Of a stretch of 41,983 nucleotides of DNA, positions 24,855-39,488 are shown one piece after another. The notes beneath the pieces were generated by a model. That model searched no databases and was not told the origin of the DNA. It was given only the letters and a program-made list of their open reading frames with translations. Within the stretch, counting starts at the first letter, position 1. The number at the start of each line of letters is the position of its first letter. Source of the stretch: Tyzzerella sp. (lineage in GTDB: Bacteria; Bacillota; Clostridia; Lachnospirales; Lachnospiraceae); contig JAFUOS010000011.1 in NCBI GenBank assembly GCA_017472665.1, positions 1-41,983 of the forward strand. Direction: 5' to 3'. The translations under genes and the position numbers were made by a program.

Positions 24855-26060
24855 ATGGGAGAAAAAAATCTTAACTTTAATATTGTTGTGGATCGAAGAA
24901 ATACGCGGAGCTTGAAATATGATTTTGCGGAAGAGAGGGGAAGGCCAAAGGATATTTTGCCACTCTGGGTAGCGGACATGGATTTTAGAACATCCTCTTA
25001 TATTATAGAGGCTTTGACAGAAATGAGTGCTCATGGAATCTTTGGTTACAGCGAGGCAACAGAAAATTATTTTTCTGCGCTGAAAAATTGGATGAAAAGG
25101 CGCCATGGATGGGAGATTAATGAAAAGTGGCTAGTGAAAACACCTGGTGTTGTGTTCGCACTAGCTATGGCAGTCAAAGCATATACAAAAGAAAATGAAG
25201 CAGTATTAATTCAACAACCGGTGTACTATCCATTTGCAAACATCATAGAGAATAACAATCGAAAACTGGTAATAAATGAGCTTAAGCAAAGAAAAGATGG
25301 AAAATACTATGTAGATTTTGAAGACTTTGAGAATAAGATAGTGGAAGAAGATGTAAAACTGTTTTTCCTTTGTAATCCGCATAATCCGGTGGGAAGAGTG
25401 TGGACAGAAGAGGAACTTCGGAAAATGGGAGATATCTGTTTAAAGCATCATGTGTTAGTAGTGAGTGATGAGATACATGCAGATTTTGTGTTCAAACATG
25501 CACACACAGTATTTACTAAAGTAAGAGAAGAATATAAAGATATCGGCATTGTATGTACATCCCCAAGTAAGACTTTCAATATAGCAGGTCTTCAGGTATC
25601 CAACATTTTCATTGCCAACCATGAATTACGTCGGAAATTCCGCAAGCAGGTAAATGCATCAGGATATAGCCAGTTAAATCTGCCGGGACTAGTTGCATGT
25701 GAGGCTGCATATCAGCACGGAGACACATGGCTGGATGCGGTCCTCCAGTATATCAAAAAGAATGCAGAATATGTGGATAAATTCTTAAAAGAAAGGCTTC
25801 CAAAAGTGAAGATGACAGAACTGGAGGGGACTTATCTTCTTTGGCTTGATTTTAGAGCATATGGACTCAGCGATTCAGAATTGAATCAAAGAATCATTCA
25901 TAACGCGGGATTGTGGCTGGATAGAGGAAGCATGTTTGGAAAGGCGGGGGAAGGATTTCAAAGAATCAATATCGCCTGCCCAAGAAGCGTTTTGACAGAA
26001 GCGCTTGAAAAACTGGCTTCTGCTTTTGAAGATATAGGAAAAAGCTATAACGGGTTATAA
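24855..26060 (+). CDS. MalY/PatB-type PLP-dependent cystathionine beta-lyase (C-S lyase)
   Basis: A 401-residue fold-type I PLP enzyme of the MalY/PatB group. It opens the C-S bond of cystathionine, cystine or cysteine conjugates to give a thiol or sulfide, ammonia and pyruvate. Recognisable parts are LPLWVADMDF, the substrate-domain region HGIFGYSE, FLCNPHNPVGRVW, VSDEIHADF and the PLP lysine in SPSKTFNIAGLQ. The context (LysR, cystine-like transporter, cysteine desulfurase operon) fits a role in releasing sulfur from imported amino acids. Its 3' end overlaps the upstream box of the transporter promoter (26045-26060). GTGAGGAAA lies before the ATG. Confidence 0.88.
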   Translation: MGEKNLNFNIVVDRRNTRSLKYDFAEERGRPKDILPLWVADMDFRTSSYIIEALTEMSAHGIFGYSEATENYFSALKNWMKRRHGWEINEKWLVKTPGVVFALAMAVKAYTKENEAVLIQQPVYYPFANIIENNNRKLVINELKQRKDGKYYVDFEDFENKIVEEDVKLFFLCNPHNPVGRVWTEEELRKMGDICLKHHVLVVSDEIHADFVFKHAHTVFTKVREEYKDIGIVCTSPSKTFNIAGLQVSNIFIANHELRRKFRKQVNASGYSQLNLPGLVACEAAYQHGDTWLDAVLQYIKKNAEYVDKFLKERLPKVKMTELEGTYLLWLDFRAYGLSDSELNQRIIHNAGLWLDRGSMFGKAGEGFQRINIACPRSVLTEALEKLASAFEDIGKSYNGL

Positions 26061-26141
26061 TTTTTCTGTTATTGACAATTTATGGAAGCATGAATAAAAT
26101 ATAGTGAAAACAAACCTACTAAACAAGTAGGTAAAGTAGGT
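26045..26141 (+). promoter_or_regulatory. Promoter of the transporter operon: upstream box, TTGACA/TAAAAT, downstream palindrome
   Basis: Box CTATAAC-GGG-TTATAA (26045-26060) contains the dyad TATAAC-GG-GTTATA and is followed after 8 bases by TTATTGACA. The -35 is TTGACA (26072-26077), the spacer is 17 and the -10 is TAAAAT (26095-26100). Palindrome ACCTACT-N5-AGTAGGT (26114-26132) lies at about the start of the transcript, with an extra half site AGTAGGT at 26135-26141. The same parts, at identical spacing, recur before the encapsulin operon (29267-29356). The box fits a LysR activator and the palindrome a repressor; the latter resembles what I recall for clostridial Rrf2/IscR-type sites, not verified. 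Confidence 0.75.
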
Positions 26142-26160: not shown

Positions 26161-26820
26161 ATGGATACTGAATTTATAGTCGAATATATTCCACATTATG
26201 TGGAAGCAGCCAAGCTTACATTTCGTATTGGATTGATTGGTATTGTCCTCTCCCTGATTGTAGGCCTGGTGATTGCATTTATTCAATATTTTAAAATTCC
26301 GGTTTTAAAACAGATTGCATCAGCATATATCGAACTGTCGAGAAATACACCATTATTAGTGCAATTATTTTTTCTCTACTTCGGGTTGCCAAAAGCTGGT
26401 ATCTGTATTAGCTCCGAAGGGTGTGCCATTATAGGTCTTTGTTTCTTGGGAGGCAGTTACATGGCTGAGGCTTTTCGGAGTGGTATCGAATCGGTGGAGA
26501 AAGGTCAGGAAGAATCCGCATTGGCTTTGGGATTTAAGAAAAGGCAGGTTGTAGGGTATATCATTTTACCGCAGGCCTTGTCCGTTTCCATCCCGGCATT
26601 GTGTGCGAACATGATATTTCTCATTAAAGAAACATCCGTATTTAGCGTGGTTGCACTGGCAGATTTGATGTACGTCGCAAAAGACTTGATTGGTCTTTAT
26701 TATAAAACAGACGAAGCATTGCTGATGTTAGTTGTTTCATACTTGATTATACTTTTGCCGATTTCCATTGTTGCAGCAGTATTGGAAAGGAGGCTTCGTT
26801 ATGCAGGATTTGGGAATTAG
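26161..26820 (+). CDS. Polar amino acid (probably cystine) ABC transporter permease 1
   Basis: A 219-residue inner-membrane permease of the His/Gln/cystine (HisM/TcyL-like) type. About five hydrophobic helices are present, starting with LTFRIGLIGIVLSLIVGLVI. The family signature IELSRNTPLLVQLFFLYFGLP and the EAA-type coupling loop (GQEESALALGFKKRQVVGYIILPQA) contacts the ATPase. It forms a heteromer with the next gene, which overlaps its end by 20 bases. Substrate specificity cannot be read from the permease. Cystine is inferred from the sulfur context. Confidence 0.88.
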   Translation: MDTEFIVEYIPHYVEAAKLTFRIGLIGIVLSLIVGLVIAFIQYFKIPVLKQIASAYIELSRNTPLLVQLFFLYFGLPKAGICISSEGCAIIGLCFLGGSYMAEAFRSGIESVEKGQEESALALGFKKRQVVGYIILPQALSVSIPALCANMIFLIKETSVFSVVALADLMYVAKDLIGLYYKTDEALLMLVVSYLIILLPISIVAAVLERRLRYAGFGN

Positions 26821-27481
26821 AGTTTTGTTTATGGGAAATAACTTTGCAAGACTTATGGAAGGCCTTTGGATTACCATCCGAATCTCATTGATTGCAGTTG
26901 CACTTTCCATCGTGTTTGGTATTCTGTTGGGAATGCTGATGACGGTAAAGAATCCGATTATCAGGGCGTTGACAAAGGTATATTTGGAATTTATCCGCAT
27001 TATGCCACAGTTGGTTCTTTTGTTTCTGGTATACTTTGGACTTACGAAATCCTTTGGGATTAATCTTTCCGGTGAAGTAAGTGCGGTGATTGTGTTTACG
27101 CTCTGGGGAACAGGAGAGATGGGAGACCTCGTCAGAGGCGCATTAATCTCGATTCCAAAACACCAGTATGAAAGCGGTGAGGCAATCGGACTTAGCAAAT
27201 GGCAAGTTTACTATCACATCATCATTCCGCAGATTTTAACAAGACTTGTGCCGCTGGCAATTAACCTGACAACACGAATGATTAAAACCACTTCGCTTGT
27301 GGCGCTCATCGGTGTTGTGGAAGTATTAAAAGTAGCACAGCAGATTATCGAGGCAAATCGATACACCGTGCCGGATTCGGCATTGTGGATATATGGAACC
27401 ATCTTTTTCTTATACTTCATTGCATGTTGGCCAATTTCCTTGGTTGCAAAAAGATTAGAGAAGAGATGGAAGACAGCATAA
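26801..27481 (+). CDS. Polar amino acid (probably cystine) ABC transporter permease 2
   Basis: A 226-residue permease homologous to the previous one, with YLEFIRIMPQLVLLFLVYFGLTK and the EAA loop YESGEAIGLSKWQVYYHIIIPQI. The start is the ATG at 26801, preceded by AAAGGAGG. The longer frame to 26768 has no such site. It overlaps the upstream gene by 20 bases, which points to coupled translation of the two permease subunits. Confidence 0.88.
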   Translation: MQDLGIRVLFMGNNFARLMEGLWITIRISLIAVALSIVFGILLGMLMTVKNPIIRALTKVYLEFIRIMPQLVLLFLVYFGLTKSFGINLSGEVSAVIVFTLWGTGEMGDLVRGALISIPKHQYESGEAIGLSKWQVYYHIIIPQILTRLVPLAINLTTRMIKTTSLVALIGVVEVLKVAQQIIEANRYTVPDSALWIYGTIFFLYFIACWPISLVAKRLEKRWKTA

Positions 27482-27520
27482 AAGAAGCAGACAGCTTCTG
27501 ATGAAAAAGAGGTGAGATAT

Positions 27521-28270
27521 ATGGCGGAGCAGCCAATCTTATTGGAAGCAAAAAATATTATAAAGGATTACGGCAGCGGACCAGTATTAAATGAAGTTTC
27601 TCTACAGATACACAAAGGCGAGGTCATCGTTCTGATTGGGCCGTCTGGCTGTGGAAAGAGCACGTTTCTCCGATGTATGAACGGATTGGAGTCGATTCAA
27701 TCCGGACAGATTCTGTTAGATGGGGAAGTTATTACAGAAGGGAAGACTGACTGGCCTAAGGTCAGACAAAAAATTGGTATGGTCTTTCAAAACTATGAAT
27801 TATTCCCACACATGAGTGTGATAGATAATATTGTTCTTGGTCCTGTCAAAGTACAGGGAAGAGATAAAAAAGAAGTAATCAAAGAAGCAGAGAAACTCCT
27901 TGAACGAGTTGGACTTCTTGAAAAAAAGGATGCTTTTCCAAGACAGCTCTCTGGAGGGCAAAAGCAACGTGTTGCAATCGTCAGAGCATTGATTTTAAAA
28001 CCTGAGATTCTTTTGTTCGATGAAGTAACTGCAGCACTTGACCCGGAGATGGTAAGAGAGGTCTTAGATGTAATCTTAGAACTTGCTTCTGAAGAATACA
28101 CGATGTTGATTGTGACACATGAGATGCAATTCGCGAGAGCGGTTGCAGACAAAATTGTTTTTATCGATGGCGGAAAAATCGTGGAAAGCGGTGAGCCGGA
28201 GAAATTTTTTACCCAGCCAGAAACCGATCGAGCAAGACGGTTTTTGAATACATTCATATATGCGAAATAA
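27521..28270 (+). CDS. Polar amino acid (probably cystine) ABC transporter ATP-binding protein
   Basis: A 249-residue ABC ATPase energising the two permeases. Walker A is GPSGCGKST (40-48). The Q-loop FQNYELFPHMSV follows. The signature is LSGGQKQRVAIVRAL, Walker B ILLFDEVTAALDPE, and the switch histidine lies in VTHEMQFAR. The ATG at 27521 is preferred over the GTG at 27512 because GAGGTG then lies six bases upstream. The closest relatives by motif are GlnQ/TcyN-type ATPases of amino acid uptake. Confidence 0.92.
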   Translation: MAEQPILLEAKNIIKDYGSGPVLNEVSLQIHKGEVIVLIGPSGCGKSTFLRCMNGLESIQSGQILLDGEVITEGKTDWPKVRQKIGMVFQNYELFPHMSVIDNIVLGPVKVQGRDKKEVIKEAEKLLERVGLLEKKDAFPRQLSGGQKQRVAIVRALILKPEILLFDEVTAALDPEMVREVLDVILELASEEYTMLIVTHEMQFARAVADKIVFIDGGKIVESGEPEKFFTQPETDRARRFLNTFIYAK

Positions 28271-28285
28271 AAGGAGGAAAAAAGC

Positions 28286-29167
28286 ATGAAAAAATTATTA
28301 TCATTATTATTAACAGTTGTCTTAGCACTGGGAGTTCTCGCAGGCTGTGGCAACACAGAAGAAGCTTCTAATGAGGCAGAAAGCAACACAGAAAAGGCTA
28401 GTAAAGACGTGGTATACCGCACACTTGATGAAATCAAGGAAAGTGGTACTATTAAAATTGGTGTTTTCAGTGACAAGAATCCATTTGGTTATGTAGATGA
28501 GAAAGGTGAGTATCAAGGTTATGATGTATACTTCGCTGAACGTATTGCAAAAGACCTTGGTGTAGAAGTTGAGTATGTTTCTACAGATGCAGCTAACCGT
28601 GTGGAATACTTGAAGAGTGGTAAGGTAGACATTGTACTTGCAAACTTCACAGTTACAGAGGAAAGAGCAGAATCTGTTGATTTCGCACTTCCCTACATGA
28701 AAGTAGCTCTTGGTGTTGTTTCACCAGATGGTGCACTTATTACAGAACCAGAACAGTTAAATGGTAAGAAACTGATTGTTACAAAAGGAACAACAGCAGA
28801 GACATTCTTTACAGAAAACTATCCTGAAATTGAACTTGTAAAATTCGACCAATATACAGAAGCTTACAACGCATTGTTAGATGGTCGTGGAGATGCATTC
28901 TCTACAGATAATACAGAAGTATTAGCTTGGGCTTTACAGAATGATGGTTTCAGTGTTGGTATCGAATCAATCGGTAACTTAGACACGATTGCACCTGCAG
29001 TATCGAAAGGAAATGAAACATTATTAGAATGGATTAATGATGAGATCGTTTCTTTAGCAGATGAAGAATTCTTCCACGCAGATTACAAAGAAACATTAGA
29101 GCCAGTATATGGTACATCAGTTGATATTGACAGCTTAGTTGTAGAAGGCGGAGTTATCGAAGAATAA
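28286..29167 (+). CDS. Amino acid ABC transporter substrate-binding lipoprotein
   Basis: A 293-residue family 3 solute-binding protein. It has a signal peptide with a lipobox, LAGC with Cys21, so it should be anchored to the outer face of the membrane. An acidic/Ser/Asn linker (22-45) leads to the binding domain. Typical segments are GTIKIGVFSDKNPFGYVDEKG, YDVYFAERIAKDLGV, KVDIVLANFTVTEERAESVDF and DGRGDAFSTDNTEVL. Homologues bind cystine, glutamine or arginine. Cystine is inferred from promoter sharing with the sulfur operon. A terminator follows. Confidence 0.9.
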   Translation: MKKLLSLLLTVVLALGVLAGCGNTEEASNEAESNTEKASKDVVYRTLDEIKESGTIKIGVFSDKNPFGYVDEKGEYQGYDVYFAERIAKDLGVEVEYVSTDAANRVEYLKSGKVDIVLANFTVTEERAESVDFALPYMKVALGVVSPDGALITEPEQLNGKKLIVTKGTTAETFFTENYPEIELVKFDQYTEAYNALLDGRGDAFSTDNTEVLAWALQNDGFSVGIESIGNLDTIAPAVSKGNETLLEWINDEIVSLADEEFFHADYKETLEPVYGTSVDIDSLVVEGGVIEE

Positions 29168-29177
29168 TTCAGGAAAC

Positions 29178-29222
29178 CGGAGGTTATTGTAGAGAATATT
29201 CTATAAGAAGCCTCCGTTTTTT
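29178..29222 (+). terminator. Intrinsic terminator of the transporter operon
   Basis: CGGAGG (29178-29183) pairs with CCTCCG (29211-29216), followed by six T bases. TAGA/TCTA pairs further inside. Confidence 0.88.
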
Positions 29223-29266
29223 ACAAAAGTCATATGGAAAACATTTCCTGCGGATATAGATAAAAA

Positions 29267-29356
29267 CTATAACCAGCCATAAAGTTTGTGTTATTGACAA
29301 CTACTCAGAACAGGAATACAATAGAGTGGACTAAAACCTACCGAGTTGGTAGGTTT
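29267..29356 (+). promoter_or_regulatory. Promoter of the encapsulin sulfur operon, same architecture as the transporter promoter
   Basis: Upstream box CTATAAC-CAG-CCATAA (29267-29282) is followed after 8 bases by TTATTGACA. The -35 is TTGACA (29294-29299), spacer 17, -10 TACAAT (29317-29322). The palindrome AAACCTACC-N5-GGTAGGTTT (29334-29356) follows. Distances from box to -35 and from -35 to ACCTACY (42 bases) equal those at 26045-26132. The two promoters are therefore very likely co-regulated by the same proteins. Confidence 0.8.
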
Positions 29357-29399: not shown

Positions 29400-29831
29400 A
29401 TGTTAATTCTTCAAGAAGACACAATGGAAAAGCTTTGTTCTCATGCACAAATGGAATATCCAAAGGAATGCTGTGGAATTATGTTGGGTAAGCGACAGGA
29501 TGAACAAAGAATTACATACAAAGTAATTCCGACAAAGAACATAATAGACGAAAGCAAAAATACAACTCACTTTTTGATAAATCCTCTTGAAATCCTAGAG
29601 GCTGAATTATTGGCAGAAAAGGAAAAACTTGAGATTGTAGGATTCTATCATTCACATCCTGATTATGAAGCGATTGCTTCAGAGGAAGATATGCTTTATA
29701 TGATGGAAGGGTATTCCTATTCAATTATTTCTGTGAAAAATGGAACCAGCGTCAGAATAAGCAGCTTTGAAAAAGTCTCACAAGCAGACACTGACGCAAA
29801 AGAGGAGGATATCTTGGTAAAGGAGAAGTGA
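29400..29831 (+). CDS. JAMM (MPN+) metalloprotease, first copy
   Basis: A 143-residue JAB1/MPN+ zinc peptidase. All ligands are present: Glu23 (KECCG), His84-Ser-His86 (FYHSHP), then seven residues to Ser94 and two more to Asp97. In bacteria, small JAMM proteins such as Mec+ and QbsD cut extra residues from sulfur-carrier proteins to expose a terminal Gly-Gly. The next gene, starting one base after this stop, encodes a carrier fused to its E1 at a Gly-Gly junction, which is the likely substrate. First gene of the operon, about 70 bases after the predicted transcription start. Confidence 0.88.
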   Translation: MLILQEDTMEKLCSHAQMEYPKECCGIMLGKRQDEQRITYKVIPTKNIIDESKNTTHFLINPLEILEAELLAEKEKLEIVGFYHSHPDYEAIASEEDMLYMMEGYSYSIISVKNGTSVRISSFEKVSQADTDAKEEDILVKEK

Positions 29832-29832
29832 A

Positions 29833-31296
29833 ATGCAGATTTCAGTATATGTATCAGCAACTCTACGGTCTTTTGTGAATCGACAAGCAAGGATTGAATT
29901 AGAAGGAACGACTGTCAGAGAAATATTACAGCATTTGCAGGATGAATATCCTGAAAGCAAAAAAGCTTTATTCGAGGAAGATGGAACGCTCAGACCTTTT
30001 GTAAGTGCGTATGTAAATGACGTTAGAATTTTGGGAGAAGCAGAACTAGAGGTTTCTTTGAAGGAAGGAGACCAGATTTTGTTGTTGCCTGCAATTGCGG
30101 GAGGGGCACCTGTAGCGAGTGTCATCTCAGATGAACGTAGAAAGGCAGTGTCTCTGGATGATTCTGAAATTGAACGATTTAACAAACACCTGATGCTTCG
30201 GGATATTGGAGTGAAAGGGCAAAAAAGGATAAAAGCAGCAAAGGTTCTGGTGATTGGACTGGGTTCTCTTGGTGCTCCGGTAGTACAATATTTGGCTGCA
30301 GCAGGAATCGGAACGATAGGAATTGTCGATTTTGACGAGGTTTCCCTGGGGAATTTACAAAGTCAGGTGATCCATGGAACCAGAGATGTACATCGACCAA
30401 AGACCGCATCAGCAAGGGATTCCATTAAGGCAATTAATCCTAAGATTAAAATTGAAACAGTCAATGAAAAAATAGAGGCAGATAACATTGCAGAAATTAT
30501 AGGAGATTATGATATCGTTGTAGATTGCACAGATAACTATAAGTCACGATACTTGATCAATGATGCTTGTGTACTTTTAGGAAAACCAGTAGTGTTTGGG
30601 GCTATGTACCAATTTGAAGGTCAGGTAAGTGTATTCGATGCAACATCAGGCCCGTGCCTGAGATGTCAGTTTTCAGCCCCACCACCGGCAGGATTAGTTC
30701 CTACCTGTGCTGAAGGAGGAGTCATTAGTCCATTGCCAGGAATTGTTGGAAGCATTCAGGCGAATGAAGTACTGAAGCTGATTATTGGTGGTGGAGAAAG
30801 CTTAAAAGGGAAAATACTTGTAGTGGATACGTGGAATATCCGTACCACGATTCTTCCGATACATAAGGATGAAAATTGTCCAATCTGTGGAAAGAATCCA
30901 TCCATTTTGGAAATAGAAAACTTTGACTACGAAGATTTCTGTGGATTAAAACAGGATGAAGATGAGATTCCTGTGGAAGGAATCGAAGCAGAAGAATTGG
31001 CTGCGAGAATTGAAAGAGGCGAGCCAATGACACTTGTAGATGTAAGAGAACCGCATGAGAGAGCCATTCATCGTTTTCCAAATGCGATTGTAATACCAAT
31101 CGGACAGTTGGCTAGACGACAGAAAGAGTTAGATCCTGATGTGGATACGATCTTTATCTGCAAGGAAGGAAAGAGAAGTATTTTGGCAATCAATACTTTA
31201 AGAGAAGCTGGCTACAAAGGACCAATGTATAACCTGAAAGGCGGCATTGAGTCAGCAAAGAATATTATTTTCTCCCATGAGGGAGCATGGTTATAA
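29833..31296 (+). CDS. MoaD/ThiS-like carrier - ThiF/MoeB E1 - rhodanese triple fusion
   Basis: A 487-residue three-domain protein. Residues 1-91 form a beta-grasp sulfur carrier (MoaD-like) ending LLLPAIAGG, with Gly90-Gly91 inside the chain. Residues about 105-360 form an E1-like adenylating domain, with GLGSLG, DCTDNY, zinc cysteines C275/C278/C349/C352 and candidate catalytic Cys292 (TCAEGG). Residues about 380-487 are a rhodanese with Cys443 (CKEGKRS). Such parts usually activate the carrier as acyl adenylate and make a thiocarboxylate. Cleavage after Gly91 by the adjacent JAMM would be needed. Two E1 residues that contact ATP in MoeB appear replaced (Lys118 and Ser177, see findings). 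Confidence 0.88.
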   Translation: MQISVYVSATLRSFVNRQARIELEGTTVREILQHLQDEYPESKKALFEEDGTLRPFVSAYVNDVRILGEAELEVSLKEGDQILLLPAIAGGAPVASVISDERRKAVSLDDSEIERFNKHLMLRDIGVKGQKRIKAAKVLVIGLGSLGAPVVQYLAAAGIGTIGIVDFDEVSLGNLQSQVIHGTRDVHRPKTASARDSIKAINPKIKIETVNEKIEADNIAEIIGDYDIVVDCTDNYKSRYLINDACVLLGKPVVFGAMYQFEGQVSVFDATSGPCLRCQFSAPPPAGLVPTCAEGGVISPLPGIVGSIQANEVLKLIIGGGESLKGKILVVDTWNIRTTILPIHKDENCPICGKNPSILEIENFDYEDFCGLKQDEDEIPVEGIEAEELAARIERGEPMTLVDVREPHERAIHRFPNAIVIPIGQLARRQKELDPDVDTIFICKEGKRSILAINTLREAGYKGPMYNLKGGIESAKNIIFSHEGAWL

Positions 31297-31334
31297 ATAA
31301 AAAATATGTGAATAAGAAATAGGAGGTCATGAAC

Positions 31335-32282
31335 ATGGCAAAAGAAGAACAAGGAATCAATGCATTAGGAGCTCAAGCAGCATATAATTTGTCTAATGTG
31401 ACAAAAACAAAACCACAGTATGGTGCACTCACACCAAAGTGGTTAACAAAATTATTGGAATTTAAAGGATTAGAGACAGGTATTTATCGTGTCAATAAGG
31501 TTGTAGAAGGAGAAACACCACTGGATGTTTTATGCAGCCAGACAAAGAAGTCTGATATTATTCCAGACGGATACATAGAGTATGAGACAGAACCAAGAGA
31601 ATATCGCTTGAATTCGATTTCTACTATTATTAATGTCAATACAGCAATTGAAGATGTATATAGCGCTCCATACGATCAAGTAAAGGAACAGTTATCTTTG
31701 GCAATTGAAAGTTTGAGAGAGAGACAGGAAAGTCAATTGATTAATAATGATGATTATGGCCTTCTTAAAAATGTGCCTGATTCTCAGAGAATTCAATCAC
31801 GCACAGGAGCACCAACACCAGATGATCTTGATGAACTGATCACAAAAGTATGGAAGGAACCTTCCTTCTTCCTTGCTCATCCAAGAGCGATCGCTGCATT
31901 TGAAAGAGAATGCACAAAGAGAGGAGTTCCACCTGTAACTGCAAATATCGCTGGAGGCACATTTATTCTCTGGAGAGGAATTCCAATCATTCCAACAGAT
32001 AAGCTTTTAGTTGACGGACTGAAGAATCCAAAGAGCCAGAGCGGTAAGACAAATATTCTTTTGGTTCGTACTGGAGAAGCAAAACGCGGTGTTATTGGAC
32101 TTTATCAGGCAGGCATGAAAAATGAACAATCAAGAGGTTTATCTGTAAGATTTAGAGGAATTGATGACAAGGGAGTCGCATCTTATCTTTTATCTTTATA
32201 CTGCTCAGCAGCAATTTTAGCAGACGATGCAATCGCAGTGTTAGAGGATGTTGAGGTAGGTGAATACTATGACTACGAATAA
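31335..32282 (+). CDS. Family 2A encapsulin shell protein
   Basis: A 315-residue HK97-fold nanocompartment shell protein of encapsulin Family 2A. Conserved family segments are visible: ARNL-like AAYNLSNVTKTKPQ, LTPKWLTKLL, GIYRVNKVV, DYETAPREY-like YEYETEPREYRL context, GAPTPDDLDELITKVWK, GVPP, WRGIPIIPTDK, ILLVRTGE and the C-terminal AILADDAIAVLEDVEVG. No cyclic-nucleotide-binding domain is inserted, which excludes Family 2B. Published Family 2A shells enclose cysteine desulfurase, encoded here by the next, overlapping gene. AGGAGG lies eight bases before the ATG at 31335. An ATG at 31329 is too close to it. Confidence 0.92.
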   Translation: MAKEEQGINALGAQAAYNLSNVTKTKPQYGALTPKWLTKLLEFKGLETGIYRVNKVVEGETPLDVLCSQTKKSDIIPDGYIEYETEPREYRLNSISTIINVNTAIEDVYSAPYDQVKEQLSLAIESLRERQESQLINNDDYGLLKNVPDSQRIQSRTGAPTPDDLDELITKVWKEPSFFLAHPRAIAAFERECTKRGVPPVTANIAGGTFILWRGIPIIPTDKLLVDGLKNPKSQSGKTNILLVRTGEAKRGVIGLYQAGMKNEQSRGLSVRFRGIDDKGVASYLLSLYCSAAILADDAIAVLEDVEVGEYYDYE

Positions 32283-33927
32283 TTTTGAAGGCAATGCCAC
32301 AGACTTGGGTTTACCTTCAGAGCTGGAATTGGAAGGACTGGCGAATCAATTGTTTTCGGATATTGATGGAAGTCTTTTTGAACCAGAGGTATGTGCGGAA
32401 GGTATTGAAAAACTCGTTACATCTGGTGACACTGGAGTGTTTGATACCGCTGCAAATAAAGCAACGAGGTTATTTGGCGGACAGCTTGGCGTGCAGGATT
32501 TTGAAAATATTCTTGGTGAATTAAAAGAGTATGCTGCAGGATATGAATTTGTAGATTCTGCAAGTGAGAAAAATCAGCATACCGGATACGCACCTCAGGT
32601 GATTTCAGAACAGCAGGCAGAGTCAGGAAATGAAATAAGAATACAAACTGCCGCAAAGGAAAATAATGGTACCAGTTTTGGCACGGTAGGCGGACAGAAA
32701 AACAACAGTCAGATCTTTGTCGGAACGAAGACTCTGGAGCAGATTCGTCAGGATTTTCCGATCTTGCAGGAAAAAGTGAATGGAAATCCACTGATTTGGT
32801 TAGATAATGGGGCGACTACTCAGCGTCCGAAGCAGGTCATTGACAGACTTAGCTACTATTATGAACATGAAAATTCCAATGTTCATAGAGGAGCCCATAC
32901 ATTGGCAGCCAAATCAACAGATGCTTACGAAGGGGCAAGACAGATTGTTGCAGACTTTATAGGTGCTCCTTCTAAAGACAATGTTGTTTTTGTAAGAGGT
33001 ACCACAGAAGGAATCAATTTAGTTGCACATTCCTATGTAAAACCATTGCTGCAGCCAGGAGATGAGATTATTGTTTCTTTATTGGAGCATCATGCGAATA
33101 TCGTTCCATGGCAGTTGGTGGCACAGGAAACGGGTGCAGTGATTAAGGTGATTCCGGTAGATGAATCCGGACAACTGATTCTTTCTGAATATGAAAAATT
33201 ATTTACCAAAAGAACAAAATTTGTTTCTGTGACACATGTTTCCAATGTACTTGGAACCATTACCCCAGTGGCTGAATTGATTGCAATTGCCCATTGTCAT
33301 GGCGTACGTATCCTGATCGATGGTGCACAGTCAATCGCACACATTCCAGTGAATGTGACTGCTTTGGATGCCGACTGGTTCGTATTCTCAGGACATAAGA
33401 TTTATGCTCCGACAGGAATCGGTGCTGTCTATGGTAAAAAGGAAGTTCTGGAGGAAGCAAAGCCATATCATGGCGGCGGTAACATGATTAAAGATGTTAC
33501 ATTTGAAAGAACAATATATAATCCGGCTCCGAATAAGTTTGAAGCGGGAACAGGAAGTATTGCGGATGCAGTAGGCCTTGGAGCAGCACTCGAATACTTA
33601 AATGGAATTGGAATGGCAGACATTAGTAAATATGAGCATGAACTTGTAAGTTATGGCATGAAGGAACTTGGCAAGATTAAAGGTCTTCATTTGGTTGGTA
33701 CAGCTGCAAATAAATCCAGTGCTTTGTCATTTGTGTTAGATGGCGTTTCCAATGACGCTGTTGGACAAAAACTGGATCAGAATGGCATAGCTGTACGTGT
33801 TGGCCATCATTGTGCACAGCCGATTTTAAGACACTATGGTTTAGAAAGCGTTGTGCGCCCTACCTTGGCGCTCTACAACTCATTTGAAGAGATTGATACT
33901 TTGGTAAAAGTGCTTAGGTCATTATAA
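32269..33927 (+). CDS. SufS-type cysteine desulfurase with N-terminal encapsulin cargo-loading region
   Basis: A 552-residue protein. Residues about 155-552 form a group II (SufS-like) cysteine desulfurase, which removes sulfur from cysteine to give alanine and an enzyme persulfide. PLP Lys377 (SGHKIYAP) and catalytic Cys515 (RVGHHCAQP) are present. Residues 1-155 are extra: a helix-rich, acidic part (about 15-93) and a low-complexity Gln/Asn/Ser/Gly part (about 95-150). N-terminal extensions of this kind direct the desulfurase into Family 2A encapsulins. The start ATG at 32269 has GAGGTAGGT upstream and overlaps the shell gene by 14 bases, implying coupled synthesis of shell and cargo. Confidence 0.92.
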   Translation: MTTNNFEGNATDLGLPSELELEGLANQLFSDIDGSLFEPEVCAEGIEKLVTSGDTGVFDTAANKATRLFGGQLGVQDFENILGELKEYAAGYEFVDSASEKNQHTGYAPQVISEQQAESGNEIRIQTAAKENNGTSFGTVGGQKNNSQIFVGTKTLEQIRQDFPILQEKVNGNPLIWLDNGATTQRPKQVIDRLSYYYEHENSNVHRGAHTLAAKSTDAYEGARQIVADFIGAPSKDNVVFVRGTTEGINLVAHSYVKPLLQPGDEIIVSLLEHHANIVPWQLVAQETGAVIKVIPVDESGQLILSEYEKLFTKRTKFVSVTHVSNVLGTITPVAELIAIAHCHGVRILIDGAQSIAHIPVNVTALDADWFVFSGHKIYAPTGIGAVYGKKEVLEEAKPYHGGGNMIKDVTFERTIYNPAPNKFEAGTGSIADAVGLGAALEYLNGIGMADISKYEHELVSYGMKELGKIKGLHLVGTAANKSSALSFVLDGVSNDAVGQKLDQNGIAVRVGHHCAQPILRHYGLESVVRPTLALYNSFEEIDTLVKVLRSL

Positions 33928-33956
33928 ATTAGATATGGTACGGATTGGAGCTTAAT

Positions 33957-35186
33957 ATGGAATTTAGTACAAAAGTATTGCATGGAAAATCGGTAAGGCG
34001 ATTTCAGGATGGTGCCACACTTCCGCCAATTTCTCAAGTGAGTGCATTTTCCTATGAAAGTGCAGAAGAACTGGAAAAAGTATTTGCGAACAGGGCCCCA
34101 GGATTTGCCTACACAAGAATTGGAAACCCTACCGTGGATGCTTTTGAAAAAAGGGTATGCGAGCTGGAAGGCGGTCTTGCTGCAACGGCATGTTCATCAG
34201 GAATGGCAGCGATTACAGCAGCATTACTAAATATTTTGCAGTCTGGAGATGAAGTGATTGCAAGTTCTGGATTGTTTGGAGGAACCATCGATTTGTTTGG
34301 GGATCTTGAAGTGTATGGGATTGAGACGAAATATGTTACACATGTAAATGTCTCCGAAATCAAACCACTTATTACAGACAAAACAAAGGTAATCTTTGGT
34401 GAATTGATTGGAAATCCGGGACTTGACGTAATGGATATTTCGAGCGTTGCAGAACTTGCTCATGCAAATCGGATACCACTTATCGTGGATGCAACGACGG
34501 CTACACCGTACCTTATCAACCCGATCCAATATGGGGCTGATATCGTTATACATTCGTCATCTAAATATATGAATGGAAATGGCAATTCTATTAGTGGGAT
34601 TATTGTGGATGGTGGAAAGTTTCAATGGGATTTTGATAAATATCCTGTATTGAGAAAATATAAGAGGTTTGGAAATTTTGCTTTTTCCGCCAGACTTCGC
34701 AATGATATATGGAGAAATATGGGAGGATGTTTATCGCCCCTAAATGCATATTTGAACTTAATCGGTTTGGAAACATTAGCATTAAGAATGCAGAAGATAT
34801 GTGACAATGCATTTGCTATTGCCAAGGCTTTGGAGCATATAGATGGCGTTAGTGTCAATTATCCGGGACTGGAAAGCAACCCTTATTACTCACTTGTGCA
34901 AAGACAATTTGGCGGTAAGGGTGGAGGAATTGTAACACTTAGAGTCGGCTCCAAAGAGAGAGCATACAAACTGATGAATTCCCTTCAGTATGCGCTGAAT
35001 GCAACGAATATTGGAGATACAAAGACATTGGTGATTCATCCTGCTTCTACAATTTATATACATAGCAGTGAAGAACAGAAAAGGAATGCAGGTGTATATG
35101 ATGATACGATTCGAGTTAGTGTTGGGATAGAAGACTCGAAAGATTTAATCGAAGATTTTACGCAGGCAATCAATCAGCTGAACTAA
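33957..35186 (+). CDS. Cys/Met metabolism PLP-dependent enzyme (O-acetylhomoserine sulfhydrylase / gamma-lyase type)
   Basis: A 409-residue PLP enzyme of the Cys/Met metabolism family. Signature parts are AYTRIGNPTVDAFEKRV, the glycine-rich SSGMAAITAALL and PLP Lys203 (HSSSKYMNG). The C-terminal half contains TNIGDTKTLVIHPASTIY, which recalls O-acetylhomoserine sulfhydrylase. Family members join sulfide to O-acetylhomoserine or split methionine and cystathionine; the sequence alone does not decide. ATG 33957 is preferred over TTG 33945 because GGAG lies six bases upstream. It lies 29 bases after the desulfurase, so it may consume or supply sulfide for the compartment system. Confidence 0.85.
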   Translation: MEFSTKVLHGKSVRRFQDGATLPPISQVSAFSYESAEELEKVFANRAPGFAYTRIGNPTVDAFEKRVCELEGGLAATACSSGMAAITAALLNILQSGDEVIASSGLFGGTIDLFGDLEVYGIETKYVTHVNVSEIKPLITDKTKVIFGELIGNPGLDVMDISSVAELAHANRIPLIVDATTATPYLINPIQYGADIVIHSSSKYMNGNGNSISGIIVDGGKFQWDFDKYPVLRKYKRFGNFAFSARLRNDIWRNMGGCLSPLNAYLNLIGLETLALRMQKICDNAFAIAKALEHIDGVSVNYPGLESNPYYSLVQRQFGGKGGGIVTLRVGSKERAYKLMNSLQYALNATNIGDTKTLVIHPASTIYIHSSEEQKRNAGVYDDTIRVSVGIEDSKDLIEDFTQAINQLN

Positions 35187-35205
35187 AACGAAAAGGAGAA
35201 AAATC

Positions 35206-35451
35206 ATGGCAGATTATAAAATTAATGACACAGTAGACATTACGACTGTTAATTGTCCTGTCACATTTGTGAAGGCAAAAGTAGCATTAGAGGAACTTGA
35301 AGAAGGGGAAGTGTTAAAGGTTCATATGAATGGTGGAGAACCTGCGAATAATGTACCGAGAAGCATTAAGGAGGAAGGCCATGAAATTCTTGATTTTATC
35401 GAAAATGGAGATGGTACTTTTGATTTGATTGTAAGGAAAGTTGGTGAATAA
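35206..35451 (+). CDS. TusA/SirA-family sulfur carrier protein
   Basis: An 81-residue TusA-like protein. The Cys-Pro motif (Cys17 in TTVNCPVTFVKAKVALEEL) starts the first helix and is the persulfide-carrying residue. The body keeps the TusA beta-alpha-beta-alpha-beta-beta pattern (VLKVHMNGGEPANNVPRSI). TusA proteins accept sulfur from cysteine desulfurases and pass it to downstream thiolation enzymes. The upstream desulfurase and downstream rhodanese/TusA/DsrE and TtcA-like proteins fit that relay. AAAGGAG precedes the ATG, and the next gene starts three bases after its stop. Confidence 0.88.
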   Translation: MADYKINDTVDITTVNCPVTFVKAKVALEELEEGEVLKVHMNGGEPANNVPRSIKEEGHEILDFIENGDGTFDLIVRKVGE

Positions 35452-35454
35452 TGC

Positions 35455-35772
35455 ATGGCTGAGAGAGTGACATACAGCGAATTTAATGAAAAAGTAATTG
35501 GTTTTTCTGGAGTGGCAATCGTTGATTTTTATTCTGACATCTGTATACCATGTAAAAGAATGTTGCCGATTTTATCAGCACTAGAGAAGCAGTATACGGA
35601 AGAACTTTATGTTGCTAAAGTGAATGTTGCATATGAAGAGGAATTGGTAGAAAAATATCAGGTCAGATCCACACCAACATTTTTAATATTCAAAAATGGC
35701 CAGCTTGTAGAACAATTTTCTGGTGTAAAGACACAAGAAGAGCTGGAAGAGATCATTGAAGTAAACAAATAG
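35455..35772 (+). CDS. Thioredoxin-like protein with CIPC active site
   Basis: A 105-residue thioredoxin fold. The redox motif is Cys30-Ile-Pro-Cys33 with SD-I before it instead of the usual Trp-Cys-Gly-Pro-Cys. The cis-Pro loop STPTF and the C-terminal strand and helix are kept. It probably reduces persulfides or disulfides in this sulfur operon, releasing sulfide or resetting the desulfurase or rhodanese. The start at 35455 lies three bases after the TusA stop. Confidence 0.85.
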   Translation: MAERVTYSEFNEKVIGFSGVAIVDFYSDICIPCKRMLPILSALEKQYTEELYVAKVNVAYEEELVEKYQVRSTPTFLIFKNGQLVEQFSGVKTQEELEEIIEVNK

Positions 35773-35789
35773 AAGATTGGAGAAAAAAG

Positions 35790-35996
35790 ATGAGAATTAT
35801 AGTATCAGGTGAAACGAAAGAAGTTAAGGAAGAAATCACAATAGCAGAACTAATCGAACTGGAGAATGTTGAGACGCCAGAGTACGTATCAGTATCTGTC
35901 AATGATGAGTTTGTGAATGGAGAAGATTTCGCTACATATAAATTGAAAAATGGAGATGTTGTGGAATTCCTGTATTTTATGGGAGGTGGACAGTAA
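35790..35996 (+). CDS. ThiS/MoaD-like sulfur carrier protein ending GGGQ
   Basis: A 68-residue beta-grasp, ubiquitin-like carrier (MRIIVSGETKEVKEE, VSVSVNDEFVNGEDF, GDVVEFLYFMGGGQ). ThiS and MoaD must end in Gly-Gly to be adenylated and thiocarboxylated. Here one Gln follows the glycines, so the protein should be inactive until the last residue is removed, as for CysO/QbsE-type carriers that need a JAMM protease. A JAMM gene lies two genes downstream. Its TAA overlaps the ATG of the E1 gene. No other thiamine or molybdopterin gene is nearby, so its final acceptor is unknown. Confidence 0.85.
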   Translation: MRIIVSGETKEVKEEITIAELIELENVETPEYVSVSVNDEFVNGEDFATYKLKNGDVVEFLYFMGGGQ

Positions 35997-36802
35997 TGGC
36001 ATTTTCTGATGAACAGTTAGAACGCTATTCAAGACATATTATTCTCAAAGAAATTGGCGTGAAGGGACAGAAGAAACTTCTTAATGCAAAGGTGCTCATT
36101 ATTGGAGCAGGAGGCCTTGGCGCTCCGGCAGCCATGTATCTTGCGGCAGCAGGCGTTGGAACAATTGGTATCGTTGATGCTGACGAGGTGGATTTGTCAA
36201 ATCTTCAGAGACAGATTATTCATGCTACAGAGGACGTTGGAAAGCCTAAGGTAGAGTCTGCAAAAGAAACGGTGACGAAGATGAATCCAGATGTAACAGT
36301 AAATGCATATCATGAATTTGTGTCATCCGAAAATATCTTGGAACTTATTAAAGATTATGACTTTATTATAGATGGAACAGATAATTTCCCTGCAAAATTT
36401 TTGATTAATGATGCCTGCGTTATGGCTAAGAAACCATTTTCTCATGCGGGAATTATTCGGTTTAAAGGACAGCTTATGACATATGTGCCGGGAGAAGGTC
36501 CATGTTATCGCTGTGTATTTAAAAGTCCACCACCGAAGGATGCGGTACCTACCTGTAAACAGGCGGGAGTAATAGGCGCTATGGGAGGTGTCATTGGAAG
36601 CCTTCAGGCAATGGAAGCTATTAAATACATCACAGGTGTAGGTGAATTACTTACAGGCTCACTACTTACTTTTGATGCAATTAAGATGAATTTCCATAAA
36701 ATTAAACTGCCAAAAGCAGATGGCCATTGTGCAGTATGCGGAACCAATCCAACCATAACAGAAATGATTGATTATGAACAGAAAGAATGTGATGGTATAT
36801 AA
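35996..36802 (+). CDS. ThiF/MoeB-type E1-like adenylyltransferase
   Basis: A 268-residue E1-like enzyme that adenylates the C-terminal glycine of a sulfur carrier. Hallmarks are RYSRHIIL (Arg13), IGAGGLGAP (36-44), NLQRQ (Arg72), DGTDNF (126-131), zinc cysteines C170/C173 and C-AVC near 246-249, and the candidate catalytic Cys187 (PTCKQAGV). All ATP-contacting residues known from MoeB appear present, unlike the E1 in the fusion at 29833. Its ATG overlaps the stop of the ThiS-like gene, marking that protein as its partner. The JAMM gene follows after 14 bases. Confidence 0.9.
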   Translation: MAFSDEQLERYSRHIILKEIGVKGQKKLLNAKVLIIGAGGLGAPAAMYLAAAGVGTIGIVDADEVDLSNLQRQIIHATEDVGKPKVESAKETVTKMNPDVTVNAYHEFVSSENILELIKDYDFIIDGTDNFPAKFLINDACVMAKKPFSHAGIIRFKGQLMTYVPGEGPCYRCVFKSPPPKDAVPTCKQAGVIGAMGGVIGSLQAMEAIKYITGVGELLTGSLLTFDAIKMNFHKIKLPKADGHCAVCGTNPTITEMIDYEQKECDGI

Positions 36803-36816
36803 GGAGTAGAATTACT

Positions 36817-37230
36817 ATGGTAAGGATATCAAAAGAAAATTATCAGAAAATAGTAGAACATGCGATTGCAGAACTTCCAAATGAAGCCTGCGGACTTATT
36901 GCAGGCAGGGTTGATGGAACAGATAAGTTTATTGAAAAGGTGTACCTGCTTACGAATGTAGACCATTCCAATGAACATTTTTCGTTAGACCCTAAGGAAC
37001 AGCTGGCAGCTGTCAAGGAGATAAGAAATTTGGGATATATTCCTCTTGGTAACTGGCATTCTCATCCAGAATCGCCATCAAGACCATCTGAGGAAGATAA
37101 GAGACTTGCCTATGACAAGAACGCAAGTTATTTGATCTTGTCATTAATGGAGCAGGAAAATCCTGTGCTGAATTCTTTTCATATTGAAGGCACAGATGCA
37201 AGCAAAGAAGAACTGATTATCGAAGAATAA
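36817..37230 (+). CDS. JAMM (MPN+) metalloprotease, second copy
   Basis: A 137-residue JAMM peptidase paralogous to the first (29400). Ligands are Glu23 (NEACG), His81-Ser-His83 (NWHSHP), seven residues to Ser91 and two more to Asp94. The likely substrate is the ThiS-like carrier with its surplus C-terminal Gln, encoded two genes earlier, or later conjugates of that carrier. TAAGGAGTAG precedes the ATG. The array therefore holds two complete carrier/E1/JAMM sets. Confidence 0.88.
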   Translation: MVRISKENYQKIVEHAIAELPNEACGLIAGRVDGTDKFIEKVYLLTNVDHSNEHFSLDPKEQLAAVKEIRNLGYIPLGNWHSHPESPSRPSEEDKRLAYDKNASYLILSLMEQENPVLNSFHIEGTDASKEELIIEE

Positions 37231-37243
37231 AGAGGGCGCTAAC

Positions 37244-38290
37244 ATGGGAAATAATAGTAATGTGGAAGAAATTGAAGTAAAAAATATTTCTGTCGAAGAT
37301 TTTGCTGAATTGGACTTTTCGAAAGTAACTTTGTTGGATTTAAGAGAAGCAGATGAAGTATTGGTTGCAGGAATAGAGGGAGCAATCAATATTCCTTTTT
37401 CTCAGATTAGCAAAAAGCTGAGTGATGTACCAATGGATTTACCTGTGTATGTGTATTGCAGAACAGGCGATTGGAGCGAAGAGGTTGCAGAAATACTGTT
37501 AGAGCGTGGCTATGAGGTATATAATGTTGCTGGTGGGTTCAAAGCCTATAAAGAATACATAGCAAATAGAAAGCCTATTGAAATCGATGCAAAGGGATTA
37601 AAATGTCCAGGACCGATTGTAAAGGTCGCAGATACTATCCGAAATCTGGCAGATGGACAGAAAGTATTTGTGGAAGCAACGGAAGACGCTTTTGCTTCTG
37701 ACATTGCTGTGTGGTGCCAAAGAACAGGTAATTATCTGGAAAAATTAGAAGTGAAGCCTGACGTTATTCAGGCAACGATTGAAAAACGAACAAAACAGAG
37801 TGAAAATGTGACAGCTCTGCCGGACGGAAAAACCTTTGTGGTCTTCAGCGGAGACCTGGATAAGACTATTGCCGCATTTATTATGGCCAATGGAGCTGCT
37901 GCAATGGGAAGAGAAGTTACGATATTTTTTACATTTTGGGGATTGAATATTTTAAGAAAACCGAATAAGATAAAGACGAACAAAACATTTATTGAAAAAA
38001 TATTTGGCATTATGATGCCGCGAGGAACCAAAAAGCTTGGCCTTTCCAGAATGAACATGGGAGGAGCCGGAGCGAAAATGATTCGGGCTGTTATGAAGAG
38101 TAAGGGAGTATCCTCACTTGAGGAACTGATTCAAAATGCGATAGATCATGGAGTACGTCTGGTAGCCTGTCAGATGTCCATGGAAATCATGGGAATAAAG
38201 AAAGAAGAATTAATTGATGGAGTGGAATTAGGCGGAGTAGCGACTTTCTTGGGTTCAGGTGAACAGTCCAATATGAGTTTGTTTATTTAA
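37244..38290 (+). CDS. Rhodanese - TusA - DsrE fusion protein
   Basis: A 348-residue protein joining three sulfur-transfer modules. Residues about 15-108 form a rhodanese with Cys72 (YCRTGDWS). Residues about 112-180 form a TusA domain with Cys121 in GLKCPGPIVKVAD. Residues about 195-348 form a DsrE/F-like domain (FSGDLDKTIAAFIMANGAAA, FTFWGLNIL, VACQMSMEIMGI with Cys309). Each cysteine can carry a persulfide, so the chain could pass sulfur internally. Similar module sets occur attached to NADH-dependent CoA-disulfide/persulfide reductases, but no flavoprotein domain is present here. No transmembrane signal. Confidence 0.88.
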   Translation: MGNNSNVEEIEVKNISVEDFAELDFSKVTLLDLREADEVLVAGIEGAINIPFSQISKKLSDVPMDLPVYVYCRTGDWSEEVAEILLERGYEVYNVAGGFKAYKEYIANRKPIEIDAKGLKCPGPIVKVADTIRNLADGQKVFVEATEDAFASDIAVWCQRTGNYLEKLEVKPDVIQATIEKRTKQSENVTALPDGKTFVVFSGDLDKTIAAFIMANGAAAMGREVTIFFTFWGLNILRKPNKIKTNKTFIEKIFGIMMPRGTKKLGLSRMNMGGAGAKMIRAVMKSKGVSSLEELIQNAIDHGVRLVACQMSMEIMGIKKEELIDGVELGGVATFLGSGEQSNMSLFI

Positions 38291-38321
38291 AGATAAGAAG
38301 TAAGACTGAATGGAGACTAAG

Positions 38322-39488
38322 ATGAAGTCCATAGAAATAAAAGAAATAGAGAAACTAGAGCCTGGCCAGGTTACCATTGTTGATGTACGAGGCCAGGACG
38401 ATTATAAGAGAAATACAATTCCCTATGCGATCAATATTTCCATAGAGGAATTTCAAAATGGCTTGCCGGATTTGGATAAGGCAAAGCCAGTATATGTTTT
38501 ATGTTACACAGGAGAGAAAAGCGAACTCATTGTGGAACAGTTAGAAGAGGCAGGGTATGATGCCGCAAATATTAGCGGCGGATATCGGGCCTTTTTGCGG
38601 TTACAGCTAAGTCGAATCGTTCAAGAAGAATCAAGTATTGAAGAAAAGACGAAGGAAATCGAGAGAAGTATCATTAAGAAGTTCCGAAAGCCAATTTGGA
38701 GAAAATTTACAAAGGCCGTGACGGAATATCAATTAGTTCAGGAAGGCGATAAGATTGCGGTCTGTATCTCTGGCGGAAAAGATTCTATGCTTATGGCAAA
38801 ACTTTTTCAGGAACTGCAGAGGCATGGAAAGATACCATTCGAGGTGGTATTTTTGGTGATGAACCCTGGCTATAATCAGGATAACTGGAAAATTATTCAG
38901 GACAATGCAAAGATTCTCGGCATCCCTCTGACTGTGTTTGAGAGTGACATTTTCAACATTGTTGCAGGGGTTGAAAAAAATCCTTGCTACTTGTGCGCAC
39001 GTATGAGAAGAGGATATCTATATTCACATGCAAAAAAATTGGGATGCAATAAGATTGCATTGGGACATCACTTCGACGATGTAATTGAAACAGTTTTGAT
39101 GGGCATGCTTTATAGTGGAAAAGTAGAAACGATGATGCCGAAACTCCATAGTACAAATTTTGAAGGAATGGAATTGATTCGTCCTTTGTATATGGTGAAA
39201 GAAGCCGATATTAAAGCATGGCGTGACTATAACAGACTCCATTTTATCCAATGTGCCTGCAGATTCACTGAAAATTGTGCAACCTGTGGAGGCGGCAGAG
39301 GCTCTAAGAGGGATGAGATGAAAGAGTTGATTGCGAAGTTCCGTGAAACCAGTGATGTGATAGAGTATAATATATTTAAAAGTGTTCATAACATTAATTT
39401 GCGGAAGGTGATTGGATACCACAAAGATGAAATGAGTTATAATTTCCTGGATGATTATGACTCAGTAGGCAGTGACGAAGAAAGGTGA
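38322..39488 (+). CDS. Rhodanese - TtcA-like PP-loop ATPase fusion
   Basis: A 388-residue fusion. Residues 1-95 form a rhodanese with Cys61 (VLCYTGEKSE). Residues about 140-340 form a TtcA-type adenine-nucleotide alpha-hydrolase with the PP-loop SGGKDS (150-155), a cysteine pair at C222/C225 (PCYLC) and further cysteines at 311, 313, 319 and 322. These could hold an Fe-S cluster. TtcA thiolates C32 of tRNA; related enzymes modify other tRNA bases or cofactors. The rhodanese would supply the sulfur directly. ATG 38322 is preferred because TGGAG lies six bases upstream; an ATG at 38310 is in frame. HydE starts seven bases after its stop. Confidence 0.87.
   Translation: MKSIEIKEIEKLEPGQVTIVDVRGQDDYKRNTIPYAINISIEEFQNGLPDLDKAKPVYVLCYTGEKSELIVEQLEEAGYDAANISGGYRAFLRLQLSRIVQEESSIEEKTKEIERSIIKKFRKPIWRKFTKAVTEYQLVQEGDKIAVCISGGKDSMLMAKLFQELQRHGKIPFEVVFLVMNPGYNQDNWKIIQDNAKILGIPLTVFESDIFNIVAGVEKNPCYLCARMRRGYLYSHAKKLGCNKIALGHHFDDVIETVLMGMLYSGKVETMMPKLHSTNFEGMELIRPLYMVKEADIKAWRDYNRLHFIQCACRFTENCATCGGGRGSKRDEMKELIAKFRETSDVIEYNIFKSVHNINLRKVIGYHKDEMSYNFLDDYDSVGSDEER

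Follow-up and report, generated by a model that had tools for sequence, protein, structure and literature searches.

A 41,983-nucleotide stretch of DNA from the genome of a gut bacterium, Tyzzerella sp. (contig JAFUOS010000011.1, hereafter the window), carries a Family 2A encapsulin shell and its presumed cargo, a cysteine desulfurase (CyD), in one run with the genes of two ubiquitin-like (Ubl) sulfur carrier modules. The window is the entire contig C2 of a genome that is 65% complete. We consider it probable that two thiocarboxylate lines draw their sulfur from the caged desulfurase, a CysO/Mec-like line leading to cysteine and an HcyS/HcyD/MetY line leading to methionine, which would make the run a sulfur-amino-acid operon. 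This reading draws on which genes are present and how well they are conserved, on invariant catalytic residues, on carriers whose GG tails are masked, on the phylogeny of an O-acetylhomoserine sulfhydrylase (OAHS) and on a shared operator-like site, all of which were computed here. Domains were assigned by Pfam and NCBIfam profile searches of the open reading frame (ORF) translations. A preliminary description, made from the letters alone, had seen a collinear sulfur-relay run around overlapping shell and desulfurase genes, and both the ORFs and the profile searches bear this out (Table 1). It had also coupled the shell to two thiocarboxylate carrier pathways, and gene sets that would serve both were found in the shell's run.

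The Family 2A identity of the shell, likewise proposed earlier, held in the profile search: the protein exceeds the cut-off of NF041162 (Table 1) and falls under that of the 2B profile (373.6 bits, cut-off 400). PF19307 is its sole Pfam domain, and a cNMP domain was not among its Pfam matches. The desulfurase narrowly missed the cut-off of the Family 2A cargo profile, by 20.5 bits, which leaves the membership of the shell unaffected. Its alignment to NF041166 covers residues 120-555, the first 119 of 555 residues being unaligned, and its N-terminal extension of about 155 residues is variable. The miss falls in this variable region, and CyD is probably cargo of the shell. Cys518 and Lys380 are invariant in 31 aligned rows, and the ATG at 32269 is the likely start because M4 is invariant in the same rows. 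According to PMC8049743, Family 2A cargo carries the N-terminal loading motifs LARLANEFFS and AASPYYFLDG. The first appears in CyD in the looser form LEGLANQLFSD, with L27, A28 and N29 nearly invariant; the second was not seen by eye.

The first carrier module consists of the metalloprotease JAMM1 and a fusion of a MoaD-like Ubl, an E1 and a rhodanese (UE1R), and so unites the GG-bearing Ubl, E1-rhodanese and JAMM protein of the CysO/MoeZ/Mec/CysM pathway. In UE1R the GG runs through a variable linker into the E1 domain in 87/87 rows (85 distinct), and the JAMM residues of JAMM1 are conserved (72 rows). The second module contains a ThiS-type carrier, a ThiF-type E1 without rhodanese and a second metalloprotease, JAMM2; the ThiS tail, JAMM2 and the rhodanese-free ThiF match what characterises the HcyS/HcyF/HcyD pathway. 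At least one residue follows FMGGG in 53/53 ThiS rows (51 distinct). The JAMM2 motif is also conserved (53 rows), and its best solved chain is 2kks, over residues 1-137. The GG ends of both carriers are thus masked and each would therefore need a cut; the run encodes two JAMM proteins, both with their motif residues conserved. A second, stand-alone ThiS is found elsewhere in two Pseudobutyrivibrio genomes, a partial check of thiamine use of the ThiS/ThiF pair.

A shell search of genome contigs returned 498 relatives, the best 80 of which were kept; these lean to close relatives and are mostly of Lachnospiraceae type. Ranked by shell identity, the nearest named ones are metagenome-assembled genomes labelled Lachnospiraceae, Clostridia or Eubacteriales, several of them from deer gut. 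Across the 80 loci, UE1R was present in the shell's run in 78, CyD in 77, JAMM1 in 66, OAHS in 54, CysE (serine O-acetyltransferase) in 51, ThiF in 46, ThiS in 43, JAMM2 in 43, TusA in 41 and CysK in 17, where the names CysE and CysK, as well as Rrf2 and sulfite reductase below, each rest on one member of the gene group. Forty-six of the 80 runs reach the end of the locus, and the runs missing UE1R (2) or CyD (3) all do so at locus ends. Where at least 9.5 kb was available on each side (29 loci), the counts were 29 for UE1R and CyD, 26 for JAMM1, 24 for OAHS, 23 for ThiF and TusA, 22 for JAMM2, 21 for CysE, 19 for ThiS, whose short frames are easily missed, and 5 for CysK. The shell, the desulfurase and both E1 enzymes share a single run in 44/80 loci. 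Gene order is shuffled, with 51 distinct core orders among the 80 loci, and this argues for shared function over mere block inheritance. In a sample of the family, 6/299 genomes were over the shell cut-off; one is the window's own, and in each of the other five UE1R adjoins the shell. In a sample of the phylum the figure was 7/398, the window's own included. A genome of another family (G634) holds UE1R and the ThiS-ThiF-JAMM2-TusA-OAHS set, with JAMM1 not recognised.

Shell identity across the 80 loci is 86-98% (median 91%), the highest of seven proteins compared; the medians for CyD and UE1R are 68% and 64%. Recent transfer as the cause of this identity is ruled out by the fourfold sites, at which identity is 0.38 for the shell and 0.28-0.34 for the six other genes. 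High shell conservation despite such poor fourfold-site agreement hints at dense surface contacts. A Ubl-specific insertion in the shell was considered and rejected, the stretch GLKNPKSQSGK having a counterpart in shells without nearby Ubl genes (e.g. L103). Some genomes have a pair of Family 2A shell loci (L049/L057, L054/L068, L066/L080 and G135:C26/G135:C40). Of the two G135 copies, one is accompanied by the full set; for the other, the neighbours recognised within about 5 kb are UE1R, shell and CyD.

The enzyme first described as a Cys/Met pyridoxal phosphate enzyme does belong to that family, and can be refined to an OAHS, its TIGR01326 score being below the cut-off (Table 1). In a FastTree phylogeny the 59 operon-linked OAHS form one clade, sister to Wolinella succinogenes MetY (3RI6) with a support of 0.985, so that the type assignment draws on one tree and one solved member of the MetY type. 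This clade excludes 8SF5, 7KB0 and in-genome paralogs, among them both ordinary OAHS enzymes encoded in the window's genome. An [ST]YHG loop is present in 0/59 operon OAHS and in 18/20 paralogs fetched from ten of the same genomes, the other two being shorter enzymes; 3RI6 is also without it. However, loop absence alone was rejected as a diagnostic, being shared by 2/20 paralogs and 7/12 other Cys/Met-type proteins, and the tree was therefore used.

Table 1. Features of the encapsulin run and its upstream flank, with positions in the window.
Feature	Position	Strand	Basis
Second operator-like site, upstream of amino-acid ABC transporter	26114..26132	.	same motif as at 29336
Amino-acid ABC transporter (two permeases, ATPase, binding protein), possible co-regulon	26161..29167	+	profiles; site at 26114
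Likely intrinsic terminator of upstream ABC transporter operon	29168..29226	+	hairpin, T run; fold -21.1 kcal/mol, z -4.8
Promoter-like pair TTGACA-17-TACAAT	29294..29322	+	11/12 consensus
Operator-like site, perfect palindrome ACCTACCGAGTTGGTAGGT, upstream of encapsulin run	29336..29354	.	same motif before related runs
JAMM1, Prok-JAB metalloprotease, Mec-like role proposed	29400..29831	+	PF14464 74.2 bits
UE1R, MoaD-like Ubl + E1 (ThiF/MoeB) + rhodanese fusion	29833..31296	+	Pfam, NCBIfam; GG at residues 90-91, chain-internal
Family 2A encapsulin shell	31329..32282	+	NF041162 487.6 bits, cut-off 380; PF19307 315.5 bits
Cysteine desulfurase (CyD), SufS type, presumed cargo	32260..33927, likely start 32269	+	NF041166 779.5 bits, cut-off 800
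OAHS, Wolinella-MetY type	33945..35186	+	TIGR01326 421.2 bits, below cut-off 495.1; tree
TusA sulfur-transfer protein	35206..35451	+	PF01206 63.2 bits
Thioredoxin (CIPC)	35455..35772	+	PF00085 85 bits
ThiS-type sulfur carrier, HcyS-like, C-terminus MGGGQ	35790..35996	+	TIGR01683 63.6 bits, cut-off 37.45
ThiF-type E1 without rhodanese, HcyF-like, 268 residues	35996..36802	+	PF00899 304.4 bits, alone above its cut-off
JAMM2 metalloprotease, HcyD-like	36817..37230	+	PF14464 82.8 bits
Rhodanese-TusA-DsrE2 fusion	37244..38290	+	Pfam domains; 11/80 related loci
Rhodanese + TtcA-like PP-loop protein, peripheral	38310..39488	+	TtcA 202.1 bits, below cut-off 272; 5/80 related loci

Krishnamoorthy and Begley (2011; reference 34 of PMC5764234) reportedly described that W. 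succinogenes makes methionine via a protein thiocarboxylate, with HcyS, HcyF, HcyD and MetY. The second module is like that pathway in its ThiS-like carrier extended past GG, its rhodanese-free E1, its JAMM protein and its MetY-type OAHS. However, the window joins this methionine module to a desulfurase cage and to a second Ubl line. Row 4e of a 2006 survey lists a Ubl, JAMM, a rhodanese-free E1, SirA (of the TusA family) and OAHS (PMC1779556), and so also has the TusA/SirA partner of the window's OAHS module. Row 4c lists a Ubl, JAMM, E1-rhodanese and cysteine synthase (PMC1779556). Rows 4b and 4c and the CysO-MoeZ-Mec-CysM pathway (PMC3227635) resemble the first module in a GG-ended Ubl, an E1-rhodanese, a JAMM protein and, in some relatives, a cysteine synthase. 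In contrast to the CysO pathway, the window's Ubl is fused to its E1, the synthase is CysK-type and outside the window's run, and a desulfurase cage is adjacent. Taken singly, each Ubl module has been known since 2006, from a survey older than Family 2A (PMC1779556); what is new is the link to an encapsulin.

On the side of the cage, the Synechococcus elongatus srp locus (PMC8049743; L099) also has a shell and an N-extended desulfurase, with cysK, epsC, a rhodanese gene and an Rrf2 gene nearby. It differs in that the 14.8 kb read holds none of the Ubl, E1, JAMM and OAHS genes, and its shell is 53% identical. The published account reports that the srp cage is raised in sulfur starvation, proposes a storage role, and leaves open whether a carrier or storage accepts the sulfur of the Family 2A desulfurase (PMC8049743). 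For the CysO pathway, a 2011 paper gave the source of the sulfur as unknown (PMC3227635). In the loci found here, including those of Pseudobutyrivibrio xylanivorans DSM 14809 (L022) and P. ruminis CF1b (L023), a single run brings together the cage, the desulfurase and candidate sulfur acceptors. Both the Family 2A sulfur acceptor and the CysO sulfur source are therefore directly testable, also in named strains, and the relatives that keep the same set suggest where caged sulfur goes. The earlier remark that the combination is not known as a described system agrees with our literature search: no encapsulin with two Ubl carrier sets was among the matches listed, and the words ThiF and ubiquitin are absent from the main texts of PMC8346489 and PMC8049743, although supplementary neighbourhood tables might list ThiF-type neighbours. 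Aliarcobacter cibarius pACIB (L098) comes near it, with cysteine synthase, M67/JAMM, MoaD, part of an E1, rhodanese, a 2A shell (71%), CyD, cysE and cysK in one stretch. However, its MoaD is separate and the methionine module was not seen. At about 6266-8659 of L098 an IS5-family transposase gene appears to split the E1 gene that lies between MoaD and rhodanese; the pACIB cysteine module is therefore probably inactive.

From these data we infer the transfer steps, the direction of flow, the regulator and any storage as follows. By analogy with its family, the shell would enclose CyD via the N-terminal extension. CyD would strip sulfur from cysteine, giving alanine and a persulfide, perhaps stored as sulfane sulfur in the cage. 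An Acinetobacter 2A encapsulin with desulfurase is reported to store elemental sulfur, which would favour such storage. In line A, the rhodanese of UE1R would take the sulfur, JAMM1 would cut behind the GG, and UE1R would adenylate and thiocarboxylate its own MoaD-like domain; a cysteine synthase would then link this carrier to O-acetylserine and JAMM1 would free cysteine. In line B, sulfur may pass from TusA to ThiF, which would thiocarboxylate ThiS once JAMM2 has trimmed its tail, and OAHS would use the thiocarboxylate on O-acetylhomoserine, JAMM2 freeing homocysteine for methionine. A CymR/IscR-like Rrf2 repressor probably turns on the operon, together with amino-acid and methionine-type uptake, at low sulfur. 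Much more tentatively, the cage may be a sulfur bank, from which a docked E1-rhodanese and TusA withdraw sulfane sulfur for cysteine and methionine without free sulfide, JAMM proteolysis of the masked carriers gating the bank. If this doubtful extension were true, a nanocompartment would feed sulfur into amino-acid biosynthesis, an arrangement not known to us from any other organism.

Possible shared regulation is seen in the palindrome upstream of the run. We searched for ACCTAYY-N5-RRTAGGT with at most one mismatch, using first-order Markov copies as controls, and found 54 operator-like sites in 1.41 Mb (89 loci) against 1, 0 and 1 in the controls. Forty of the 54 lie within 350 bases upstream of an OAHS, Rrf2a, JAMM1, CysK, rhodanese-TusA-DsrE2 or ABC binding-protein gene; a site so placed was found in 33/89 loci, so that at this stringency most loci are without one. 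The usual form ACCTATTGACATAGTAGGT includes a TTGACA resembling a -35 element. Three sites, one of them with a mismatch, were found in the window's genome, where the reversed control had 0 matches. The three precede the ABC transporter, the encapsulin run and, on another contig, a MetQ-MetN-MetI-like run with cysK, where the Met models stay under their cut-offs and cysK is over its own. The palindromic site may be bound by an Rrf2 protein. An Rrf2 gene of one type is present in 9/80 encapsulin runs, with matches, below cut-offs, that include IscR and CymR; the sole Rrf2 gene found in the window's genome sits just behind an ordinary OAHS. In L043, an operator-like site around 14003 lies directly upstream of a second desulfurase-like gene.

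Several observations weigh against a caged desulfurase feeding both lines. CyD would contribute to making the very amino acid that it consumes, a circle unless the sulfur is banked or passed to methionine. The window's own run is without cysteine synthase or acetyltransferase, both of which sit on other contigs, and CysK is in just the 17/80 runs given above. Moreover, the cysteine synthases of one relative and of the window's genome are CysK-type (458 and 459 bits) and not CysM-type (295 and 300 bits, cut-off 394), which weakens the case for protein-thiocarboxylate use in line A, and the locus is not classed with the CysO/MoeZ/Mec/CysM pathway. JAMM1 is absent in 3/29 fully flanked loci. For line B, 3RI6 is only third by bit score among solved structures, after ordinary OAHS, and its branch is long. 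A stricter operator pattern gave 17 sites in 11 other genomes against 53 reversed-control matches; site counts alone were accordingly rejected as proof there, and only placement is telling, 5 of the 17 sites preceding an OAHS gene by at most 400 bases. Lastly, five of the six other phylum-sample genomes have shell and CyD with no Ubl genes in the stretches read, and thus the cage does not need the Ubl modules. Thirty-two plasmid records had a shell match and five were examined; no Ubl genes were found beside the shell in the Synechococcus, Azospirillum, Methylosinus and Variovorax records.

Such cages without nearby Ubl genes agree with the best surviving rival, namely that cage and Ubl modules are merely co-regulated sulfur-starvation genes, the Ubl lines being fed by sulfide or sulfite reduction and the cage serving separately in cysteine handling or storage. 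The operator-like site is compatible with this, the 2006 survey (PMC1779556) ties module B, with its rhodanese-free E1, to the reduction of sulfite and sulfate, and a sulfite-reductase-like gene is found in 4/80 runs (TIGR02912 167.9 bits, below the cut-off of 324.1). However, such genes are rare in the runs, and UE1R, with its sulfur-accepting rhodanese, stays in the shell-CyD run in 78/80 loci though order is otherwise shuffled. We therefore regard co-regulation alone as unlikely, and a caged desulfurase supplying the two lines as the better account.

A relay mainly for tRNA thiolation or a cofactor, the destination named in the preliminary description, is poorly supported and in our view quite improbable. 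Rhodanese-TtcA and rhodanese-TusA-DsrE2 are both in the window's run, and an operator-like site precedes the latter gene in L074 and L082. However, both are found in few related loci, the TtcA match is under its cut-off (Table 1), and HydE is near the shell in 1/80 loci; the frequent partners are instead amino-acid enzymes, OAHS and serine O-acetyltransferase. Least probable of all is a protein-modification system in which Ubl and E1 tag the shell or its cargo and JAMM proteins untag it: in NCBIfam both JAMM proteins score highest against archaeal desampylase, though far under its cut-off (66.5 and 77.3 bits of 130), and the shell is the most conserved of the proteins compared, yet none of the genes annotated in the run was seen to be E2-like, and the run has rhodanese and TusA sulfur-transfer domains and a thiocarboxylate-type OAHS.

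As to its layout, the run from 29400 is all on the + strand, with neighbouring genes 1-32 bases apart except where shell/desulfurase and ThiS/ThiF overlap; the tight packing claimed earlier stands, and the range of 0-46 bases does not. The run had been called free of terminators, and indeed every terminator-like + strand match within it (30051, 31539, 31852) is intragenic. A hairpin terminator, a promoter-like pair and the palindrome set it apart from the upstream amino-acid ABC transporter. Promoter-like pairs in the region are no commoner than in shuffles, so this pair is only suggestive. The start of the proposed run (29400-39488) is thus supported by the terminator-like hairpin; its end is not, since genes continue without a visible break. 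Between 39472 and 41472 are HydE (584.3 bits, cut-off 254.6), which starts at 39472 or, by ATG, at 39496, a protein with an HD domain and a ThiF-family fragment of 110 residues, whose TcdA score (107 bits) is below cut-off. The ABC transporter scored under the cut-offs of the lysine/arginine, glutamine and cystine models, and the name cystine transporter was dropped. Between a LysR gene and this transporter lies a further sulfur-amino-acid gene, a PatB-type C-S lyase (24855-26060; 480.1 bits, cut-off 340).

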